Shown here: in pieces, positions 45,884 through 55,567 of the stretch | Numbering within the stretch: the stretch's first letter is position 1 | Layout: each line of letters opens with the position of its first letter | Assembly: GCA_031177985.1 (NCBI GenBank) | Contig: JAPSJW010000002.1 | Coordinates: 441,693 to 505,692 of the forward strand | Origin: Microbacteriaceae bacterium | GTDB taxonomy: Bacteria > Actinomycetota > Actinomycetes > Actinomycetales > Microbacteriaceae | Direction: 5' to 3' | DNA length: 64,000 bases | Notes under the pieces: model-generated | What the model saw: the letters and a program-made list of their open reading frames with translations, nothing else | Databases searched by the model: none | What the model was told of the DNA's origin: nothing | Position numbers and translations under genes: made by a program

Positions 45884-46666
45884 TCAGCGCCCCTCGAACC
45901 GCGGCGTCGTGCGAGTGAGGAAGGCCTCCATGCCGGCCCGGGCGTCGTCGCTGCCCGCCAGTCGTACGAGCTCGGCCGGCAGTGCGGATGCCGCCGCGGC
46001 GTCGCCCTCGGCGACCGCGAGCCTCGCGTTGGCGAGCGTCGCCTGCACGGCGAGCGGCGCGGCCGCGGCGATCCGCCTGGCGAGCTCGACCGCCCGTGCG
46101 ACGTGCGTGCCGTTCTCGACGATCTCGGTGACGATGCGCATCCTCAGGGCCTCCTCGGCATCGAATGCGTCACCGGTCAGCATCCAGCGCATCGCGTTCG
46201 ACCACCCCGCAGCGCGGGCGAACCGAAGGGTCGCGCCCCCGAACGGCAGGATCGCACGGGCGACCTCGAGCTGCGCGAAGCTCGTCGAGCGGTCGGCGAC
46301 GACGACGTCGCTCGCCAGGGCGAGCTCGATGCCGAGGGTGTAGCAGATGCCCGAGACGGCGAGCACGACGGGCTTGCGCACGGGGCGCGTCGTCAGCCCC
46401 CAGGGGTCCAGTCCGCCGTCGGGGATGAAGCGGAGTCCGTCCGCGCCGATCCTCGGCGCGATATCCGCGAGGTCGAGACCCGCGGTGAAGTGCTCACTGG
46501 TCGAGTGCACCACTCCCACGCGCAGGGAGGCGTCTGAGTCGAGCTGCCCGTAGGCGGCGGCGAGCTGCTCGAGCATCGCGAGGTCGGCGGCGTTGCGCTT
46601 CTCCGGCCGGTCGAGCCCGATCATCAGCAGCTCTCCGTCGCGCTCGACGCTGACTCTGCGCTCCAT
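45884..46666 (-). CDS. Enoyl-CoA hydratase/isomerase (crotonase) family protein
   Basis: A 260-aa crotonase-fold enzyme: RPEKRNAADLAML at the CoA site, HFTAGLDLADIAP (oxyanion loop), and VSGICYTLGIELALASDVVVADRS. The region usually holding the second catalytic Glu (LEVARAILPFGGATLRF) is atypical, so hydration of enoyl-CoA is not assured. TAGCAT ends 6 nt before the ATG (leaderless). First gene of the crotonase - RraB - oxidoreductase operon. Confidence 0.8.
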   Translation of the reverse strand: MERRVSVERDGELLMIGLDRPEKRNAADLAMLEQLAAAYGQLDSDASLRVGVVHSTSEHFTAGLDLADIAPRIGADGLRFIPDGGLDPWGLTTRPVRKPVVLAVSGICYTLGIELALASDVVVADRSTSFAQLEVARAILPFGGATLRFARAAGWSNAMRWMLTGDAFDAEEALRMRIVTEIVENGTHVARAVELARRIAAAAPLAVQATLANARLAVAEGDAAAASALPAELVRLAGSDDARAGMEAFLTRTTPRFEGR

Positions 46667-46808
46667 CCTCCGATGCTACGGCGTCCCGCCGTCGGCGCGA
46701 GGAATGCCCGCGTCGGGGCTCCTTCACTGCCGCGCCTGCGTGCACGGCTGCGGGCCCTCCGCCGGATCAGCGGCCGCGGTGACACAGGGGAGCGGTCGCG
46801 GTTTCCCC

Positions 46809-46918
46809 GACACGCGGGTGAACGCTCGCCGACTCGTCGTTCTCCGCCAGATCCCTGTCGGAAGAGGACGGGTGAGTCGGAAAACGGGTGTGTCGGCGGA
46901 TGTGGCGGGCGTGTCGCG
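46809..46918 (+). repeat. Dispersed structured repeat, copy A
   Basis: About 110 bp in the 282-bp gap (46667-46948) upstream of the crotonase gene. It begins CCGACACGC and ends GCGTGTCGCG (nearly perfect inverted termini) with a nested inverted repeat CCGACTC (46829-46835) / GAGTCGG (46874-46880). Blocks ACTCGTCGTT.TCCGCCA, GAGTCGGAAAACG and GCGTGTCGCG recur in reverse orientation at 55218-55330. The rest of the gap shows no ORF or RNA gene that I recognise. Confidence 0.7.
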
Positions 46919-46948: not shown

Positions 46949-47776
46949 CTAAGCGGGTCGCGGGCCGCGCAGCGCTCCGATCAGGCGCAGCACGACCGAG
47001 AGGTCACCGTCGGCCGCGTCGGGGCTCGATGGAGCGAACTCGGTGATGCCCGCGCCGGCCAGCGGGAATCGCGCGGTGAGCGCCTGCACGGTCTCGACGA
47101 GTCTGGCGGCCGGGACGCCGAACGGCTCAGGGAAGCCGATCCCGTCGATGTCGCCCGGGTCCAGCACGTCGAGGTCGATGTGCACGTACACCCGGGACGC
47201 TCCGGTCGCCTCGACCGCAGCGACGACCTTCTCGGGCGTCACGTCGTCGGAGTCGAGCCAGGGGAGCGGATGCTCCTCGAGCAGCAGCGTCTCGGCGTCA
47301 TCGGGGGCGCGGACGCCCGCGAGGAGCACCCTGCCCGGCACCAGCGCCGTGCTCGCGGTGAGCCCTGGAGCGCCCTCGCCCAGGATCGCCCGCAGCACCA
47401 TCCCGTGGAAGGCGCCGCTCTGCGACGACCCCGGCGTGTTCAGATCCGGATGCGCGTCGAGCCAGACGAGGGCCACGTCGCCATCGGCCGCCGCATGCTC
47501 CACCGCGGCGAGCTCCACTCCGCAGTCGCCGCCCACGACGATGACCGGCGCCTCCAGCTCTCGGAGCGCGTCGAGCATCCGTCGCCGCACCTCGACGAGA
47601 GAGCTGTACCGGTCGACGCCCGTTCCCTGCGCGTCGCCCGCCTCGAGAGGCACCTCGAGCACGCGGGTCCTTGCGGAGGGCAGGTCGCCGCGGATCGCCT
47701 CCGCTCCGTCGACGAGCCGCATGGCACGCGAGGAACTGGAGCCCTGCCACTGCGGGACGACGAGGAAGCTGGTCAC
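46949..47776 (-). CDS. Arginase/agmatinase/formiminoglutamase-family protein
   Basis: A 275-aa ureohydrolase-fold protein: VIVVGGDCGVELAAV (the first Mn ligand, usually His in GGDHS, is Cys here), LVWLDAHPDLNTP (DAHxD) and VHIDLDVLDPGD (DxDxxDP), ending with ITEFAP. Two of three metal motifs are intact; the Cys variant recurs in actinobacterial members of unknown substrate, so the reaction is uncertain. GTG start at 47776 lies one base from the stop of the upstream F420-reductase-like gene, implying coupling. Confidence 0.8.
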   Translation of the reverse strand: MTSFLVVPQWQGSSSSRAMRLVDGAEAIRGDLPSARTRVLEVPLEAGDAQGTGVDRYSSLVEVRRRMLDALRELEAPVIVVGGDCGVELAAVEHAAADGDVALVWLDAHPDLNTPGSSQSGAFHGMVLRAILGEGAPGLTASTALVPGRVLLAGVRAPDDAETLLLEEHPLPWLDSDDVTPEKVVAAVEATGASRVYVHIDLDVLDPGDIDGIGFPEPFGVPAARLVETVQALTARFPLAGAGITEFAPSSPDAADGDLSVVLRLIGALRGPRPA

Positions 47777-54912: not shown

Positions 54913-55188
54913 TTGACGAAGAACGACTGGCAGCCGCCGTGGCCGCCGATCCAGGTCGCGATGGACGAGTGGATCGTCATGCGCGACAAGAAGACCGAAC
55001 CCGCCGCGGTCATCCGCATCGTGCGGCTGGGGCCGCGCGAGGAGCTGTACTACCGCGTCGTCACCTGGGCGCCGCGCTCCGAGGGCCGCACGCTCGTCGG
55101 CTACTTCCGCTCGCTCGGCGACGCCGACCGCGCGGTGCTGTTCGTGCCCCCGCAGGTGCGCGGACCGGGCATCCAGGCGCGGCACTGA
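54913..55188 (+). CDS. Conserved-looking small hypothetical protein
   Basis: A 91-aa protein from a TTG start 6 nt after GAGGAG. It opens with a Trp/Pro cluster (WQPPWPP), then DEWIVMRDKKTEPAAVIRIV, LYYRVVTWAP, and TLVGYFRSLGDADRAVLF, an alternating beta pattern suggesting a small beta-sandwich or RRM-like fold. I do not recognise a family. It stands alone between the divergent glycerate kinase and the repeat/tRNA region. Confidence 0.6.
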   Translation: MTKNDWQPPWPPIQVAMDEWIVMRDKKTEPAAVIRIVRLGPREELYYRVVTWAPRSEGRTLVGYFRSLGDADRAVLFVPPQVRGPGIQARH

Positions 55189-55217: not shown

Positions 55218-55330
55218 CGCGACACGCCGGATGACGCCCCGACACGCGCGTTTTCCGACTCGCTCGTGCTTTCCCGACGGGCGGATGGCGGATAACGACG
55301 AGTGGGGACGTGCGGCCGCGGCGTGTCGCG
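55218..55330 (-). repeat. Dispersed structured repeat, copy B
   Basis: About 113 bp with perfect 10-bp inverted termini (CGCGACACGC / GCGTGTCGCG). Read on the minus strand it aligns along most of its length to copy A at 46809-46918. It lies in the 306-bp gap 55189-55494, 165 nt from tRNA-Arg; apart from the tRNA terminator hairpin, nothing else is recognised in that gap. Confidence 0.7.
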
Positions 55331-55447
55331 GATGGTGGCTGCCCCAGCAGGATGTGACTCCCCACCGAGCCGCCTCGACGCCGCTGCGCGGCGCCGCGGA
55401 CTGCTCGGCGTGGGCCCACGAGCAGGGTCGCGTCCCACTCGACGAAC

Positions 55448-55493: not shown

Positions 55494-55494
55494 G

Positions 55495-55567
55495 TGCCCC
55501 CAGCAGGATTTGAACCTGCGGCCTTCTGCTCCGGAGGCAGACGCTCTATCCCCTGAGCTATGGGGGC
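55495..55567 (-). tRNA. tRNA-Arg(CCG)
   Basis: A 73-nt cloverleaf on the minus strand: acceptor GCCCCCA/TGGGGGC with discriminator A, D-arm GCTC...GAGC, anticodon stem TCTGC/GCAGA around loop CTCCGGA (anticodon CCG), and T-arm GCAGG TTCAAAT CCTGC. The 3' CCA is not encoded. Decodes CGG arginine codons, which are frequent in this high-GC genome. Confidence 0.95.

Follow-up and report, generated by a model that had tools for sequence, protein, structure and literature searches.

ERIC elements are palindromic repeats of 127 bp. They are intergenic, lie at the 3' ends of genes and are occasionally intragenic, and the Rickettsia palindromic elements (RPE) are inserted in frame within genes (PMC10969869). 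REPs are palindromic as well and are found 3' of coding regions, mostly in gaps where the neighbouring genes converge or run in one direction, and the MITEs include NEMIS/Correia, RUP, Bcr1 and Nezha (PMC3733652). Here we describe a family of short repeats in the genome of a Microbacteriaceae bacterium, two copies of which (A and B) are found in the window, i.e. the whole stretch of 64,000 nucleotides that was analysed. The original prediction, made from the letters of the window, had proposed a two-copy repeat of about 110 bp, either a MITE-like element or a repeated structured RNA of the lineage.

Copies of the repeat and their anatomy

Both segments were present with the words that they had been said to share, in the order given, and their predicted ends (46809-46918 and 55218-55330) were nearly right (exact extents in Table 1). 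The local alignment of A with B scored 53, whereas about 1000 random pairs from the window averaged 15.8 (sd 3.6) and did not exceed 34. The likeness of the two segments stood clearly above that of random pairs, and their number did not remain at two. BLAST of A or B against the whole genome (3.16 Mb in 24 contigs, 99.5% complete) returned the other copy and several further ones, and a covariance model recovered 14 full-length copies (E-values 1.9e-15 to 1.8e-6); five of these were outside the model, which was built from nine copies. The length was constant (114 +/- 2 bp in all 14; range 113-115 bp), and all the copies were non-coding, and intergenic by codon-usage gene calls. The 11-base word GTCGGAAAACG occurred 10 times in the genome, each time within an element (reversed control, 0).

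Table 1. Coordinates of repeat copies A and B, of their parts and neighbouring genes (positions in the window), and locations of the second-family elements (positions in the genome).
Feature	Position	Strand	Basis or remark
Copy A, type I	46805-46918	+	model R1 match, 101.9 bits, E 6e-16 (window search); C13:488497-488610 in the genome
Copy A, left outer inverted repeat	46806-46818	+	consensus CGCGACACGCC; column conservation, 14 copies
Copy A, conserved core	46829-46896	+	three phased TTTTCCG/CGGAAAA units and nested inverted repeat
Copy A, right outer inverted repeat GGCGTGTCGCG	46908-46918	+	exact match; column conservation
Neighbour of A, arginase-like gene	46949-47776	-	
Neighbour of A, enoyl-CoA-hydratase-like gene	45884-46666	-	
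Copy B, type I	55218-55331	-	model R1 match, 104.2 bits, E 2e-16 (window search); C13:496910-497023 in the genome
Copy B, left outer inverted repeat CGCGACACGCC	55320-55330	-	exact match, other strand
Copy B, conserved core	55239-55306	-	alignments
Copy B, right outer inverted repeat GGCGTGTCGCG	55218-55228	-	exact match
Neighbour of B, small gene	54913-55188	+	
Neighbour of B, tRNA-Arg	55494-55567	-	
Second-family element	C6:167427		about 76 bp
Second-family element (menD)	C7:738822		about 76 bp
Second-family element	C18:362443		about 76 bp

When the copies were anchored on two core words, the resulting segments were near-invariant in length (37-39, 33-34 and 42-43 bp). The blocks followed a dyad-symmetric order: outer repeat, spacer, b arm with TTTTCCG, central CGGAAAA unit, CGGAAAA with b' arm, spacer and outer repeat. 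The core of about 67 bp had a mean pairwise identity of 0.70 (0.26 when shuffled) and contained three TTTTCCG/CGGAAAA units whose centres, according to the column data, are about 19-20 bp apart, the array being near-symmetric around the middle unit. The outer inverted repeat (CGCGACACGCC/GGCGTGTCGCG) was more weakly conserved (identity 0.47-0.49 vs 0.37-0.39 shuffled) and imperfect in several copies. The spacers were fixed in length and random in sequence (0.32 and 0.36 vs 0.33 and 0.35 shuffled), and the flanks of the copies were also at the shuffled level. The inverted termini of the original prediction (GACACGC/GCGTGTC) and its nested inner repeat (CCGACTC/GAGTCGG) were both recovered, the one mismatch in copy B being CCCACTC.

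The copies formed two subtypes that differ in the position of the b' arm. In the nine type II copies, the pairing partner of the b arm CTCTTCG is CGAAGAG, outside the right unit. In the five type I copies, among them A and B, the partner is a b' arm located between the middle unit and the right one, and an additional GTGTCGG is found outside the right unit. No near-identical copies occurred among the 14, so there was no sign of recent movement.

Placement beside genes and distribution among genomes

Based on our own, unreviewed gene calls by codon usage, the copies favour gene 3' ends and are oriented with respect to them. Seven of the 14 were in convergent gaps (counting B, which faces the tRNA-Arg that the original prediction had noted nearby), six were in tandem gaps, and one, copy F, was in a divergent gap. 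In 400 kb of this genome taken as a sample, convergent gaps represented 12% of the intergenic bases and 16% of the gaps, which makes 7 of 14 an excess (P = 0.0006 against bases and 0.003 against gaps). The right end faced a stop codon at 10-136 bp in 12 of the 14 copies, and the nearest 3' end was on the right side in 12 of the 13 copies with an adjacent 3' end (P = 0.003). In the window, 31 bp separated the right end of A and the stop codon of the arginase-like gene, and the right end of B and the stop codon of the small gene were 30 bp apart.

Several single loci were also recorded. Copy F (C9:155522-155636) is upstream of rpoB and copy M (C9:147605) downstream of rpoC, so that an element stands on each side of rpoBC; about 100 bp from copy F (C9 near 155.7 kb) there is another palindrome with perfect arms, TGTCAGGTTTTCGGAC...GTCCGAAAACCTGACA. 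Copies N and O (C13:10778-12048) have the same orientation and are 1 kb apart, and the two small ORFs between them (197 and 95 aa, with a weak codon-usage score) may be acquired genes. The outer repeat also occurred by itself, as a short hairpin (CGACACGCC, 18 bases, GGCGTGTCG) about 30 bp past a gene (C13:202450-202485). The outer repeat was rejected as a widespread 3'-end motif, since it was not enriched in 400 kb and its four matches there were all coding.

No copies were detected in 99 relatives. A search of the family in 398 genomes (85 genera, none of them the host's genus), by model or mismatch pattern, also returned none, though strongly diverged relatives could escape since the broad runs scored the best 9-37 candidates per genome. 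A wider occurrence in other Microbacteriaceae, where the original prediction had proposed to look, found no support in those 398 genomes of other genera; the absence of copies there implies that the repeat was acquired or arose in this lineage. The mismatch pattern gave six single matches in other genera among the same genomes, all weak on inspection; the best of the six (in a genome of another genus, G229) has a similar core layout, GCCGGTTTTCCGCC...GTCGGAAA...GGCCGGAAACCGGC, and no second copy in that genome. A strict pattern of the exact core matched none of 84,980 species genomes, and the plasmid, phage and viral collections returned chance-level fragments only. The gene next to B was found in relatives at only two distant Microbacteriaceae loci, both without the element.

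Mobility, a second family and RNA structure

The mobility tests covered boundaries, transposases and candidate parents. As for target-site duplications, no direct repeat rose above permutation in 72 boundary/length combinations (best uncorrected 0.01), with copies that are old and exact ends that are uncertain. The Y1 (REP-associated, PF01797) transposase was not found in the genome, although the control profiles of that search did match, and the ISL3 transposase (PF01610) was not found either. Whole-genome BLAST detected neither a larger element flanked by such ends nor partial copies set apart in the way expected of the ends of a parent. Membership of REP/BIME was rejected for a 114-bp composite without a Y1 (RAYT) transposase, and descent from ISL3 (with GGCTCTTC-type ends) for the lack of PF01610; CCGCTCTTCGTTTTCCG presumably resembles ISL3 ends. 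What supports the term MITE-like is resemblance: the 14 copies are dispersed, non-coding and constant in length, they have terminal and nested inverted repeats, and a related element was apparently inserted in menD. No target-site duplications and no driver of the Y1 or ISL3 type were detected.

The outer motif CGACACGCC occurred 77 times in the genome, not far above the 53 of the reversed control, but at three positions (C6:167431, C7:738826 and C18:362447) it was grouped at equal spacing. These correspond to a second family of three elements of about 76 bp, which have the common outer repeat and fixed spacers with a different, GC-rich core. The C7 copy falls in menD, where it is in frame and part of the interdomain linker. 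This linker, measured from REPL to the next strand, is 65 aa long here, compared with 40 aa in Mycobacterium tuberculosis, 38-39 in Nonomuraea, Tsukamurella and Nocardia, and 44-49 in Listeria and Halomonas (lengths counted from the sequences). The excess over other actinobacteria, 25-27 aa, matches the size of the element. Comparison with these distant homologues suggests that a second-family element was inserted in menD; this is the strongest indication of insertion that we have, limited to the second family.

A repeated structured RNA, the other proposal of the original prediction, did not find support. Single copies had a modest folding advantage over shuffled sequences (z -1.7 to -3.2), as any palindrome does, and the strand read from the nearest gene gave z values of -2.5 (A) and -3.0 (B). 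The type II stem was paired in 87.7% of cells vs 86.7% in column shuffles, and its double changes, at 3 pairs, were equalled by 130 of 500 shuffles; paired cells and double changes in the type I stem were likewise not above column shuffles, and the spacers showed no preferential pairing with their own partner (permutation p 0.74). As covariation did not exceed shuffles, a conserved RNA structure is unsupported. The Rfam scan of the window matched the tRNA-Arg only, leaving the repeat unmatched, and no terminator-like T run was present at A or B. The fixed spacing and random spacers would fit recognition by a DNA-binding protein better than RNA pairing.

Explanations and comparison with known repeats

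These copies are probably lineage-specific, old, small, non-coding and non-autonomous palindromic repeats of a MITE/ERIC-like kind that were spread by trans-mobilisation, a reading that we favour with some reserve. The conserved blocks, spaced by approximately two helical turns, would be recognition sites of a DNA-binding protein, perhaps a transposase that was supplied in trans and is now lost or unrecognised. Blocks of this kind would stay intact while the spacers drifted to saturation because they are the sites recognised by the protein, and they would be preserved if only the copies usable by the trans-acting protein were propagated. Insertions may have survived mainly just past stop codons, where they would do least harm. 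Once settled, an element would provide a strong hairpin in 3' untranslated RNA or between convergent genes, which may affect termination or mRNA decay, as reported for ERIC and other MITEs. Against mobility stands the failure to detect target-site duplications or a driver transposase (Y1, ISL3).

The main rival, which we consider rather unlikely, is that the copies are chromosomal protein-binding sites held in place (nucleoid-associated, gyrase/BIME-like or regulatory). In this case the blocks and their spacing would be conserved and the spacers random because each copy is selected individually. The sharp contrast between core and spacers, the rigid spacing, the dyad-symmetric layout in which about 19-20 bp separate the CGGAAAA units, the intergenic and oriented position of all 14 copies, the lack of near-identical recent copies and the pair flanking rpoBC all agree with such sites. 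Absence from all other family genera searched would be unusual for a core chromosomal function, however, and the two subtypes, the second core within a common outer repeat and the apparent menD insertion look mobile; binding sites held in place thus account equally well for the conserved blocks, but not for the genus restriction, the subtypes or the menD copy. A more specific version seems decidedly unlikely to us: genus-specific, dyad-symmetric multi-block sites under selection, to which a single host protein binds at two-turn intervals, would mark the 3' ends of transcription units (e.g. both sides of rpoBC), and the outer repeat would be an exchangeable module round different cores.

Selection on a transcribed RNA element of the 3' untranslated region, acting as a bidirectional terminator or mRNA stabiliser, would explain why copies lie 10-136 bp past stop codons and in convergent gaps, and why the gene-read strand of A and B folds better than shuffles. 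We regard it as quite improbable, given that covariation stays at the shuffled level in the type I and type II stems and in the spacers, that A and B have no T run and match no Rfam family, and that most genes are without the repeat. Even less credible, and in our opinion very improbable, is that the copies are remnants of at least one larger mobile element (an IS or phage now lost, of which the ends would be left). The use of one outer repeat by two families that differ in their cores, and copies as close as N and O, 1 kb apart around two small ORFs, could be read in this way; the length is constant at 114 bp with both ends in all copies, though, no copy encloses a gene, and the plasmid, phage and viral collections contained no match.

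The copies add to an actinobacterial genus a family of palindromic intergenic repeats for which our searches returned no known counterpart, and the contrast between conserved blocks and randomised spacers of fixed length offers a handle on the bases that a recognising protein needs. If the repeats are mobile, they combine one outer repeat with different cores, and with an in-frame insertion in the linker of an enzyme; if they are not, they represent an undescribed chromosomal binding site.

Among described repeats, ERIC is similar in being an imperfect palindrome of comparable size that is dispersed, intergenic and located at gene 3' ends, with occasional intragenic copies. It differs in its confinement to enterobacteria and vibrios and in reaching hundreds of copies; strain-level insertion polymorphism is documented for ERIC. 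The likeness was judged on architecture. With REP/BIME the present repeats have in common the palindromic structure and the intergenic position 3' of genes, whereas REPs are 20-40 bp long, occur in high copy number, carry a GTAG or CGTC tag and are associated with Y1, and here we found a 114-bp composite and no Y1. The second-family copy in menD appears to be an in-frame palindromic insert as in RPE, although RPEs are of about 150 bp and mostly intragenic, in contrast to the main family, which is intergenic in 14 of 14 copies. MITEs are likewise short and non-coding, with terminal inverted repeats and many dispersed copies beside genes; in our case, target-site duplication was undetected, a parent IS was not found, and the copies are old and diverged outside the blocks. 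Since our searches brought up no link in sequence to a named family, the repeat is a member of the broad kind and not ERIC, REP or MITE proper. It is a real element of a fairly ordinary kind, with a likeness to ERIC, MITEs and other small mobile repeats of bacteria.
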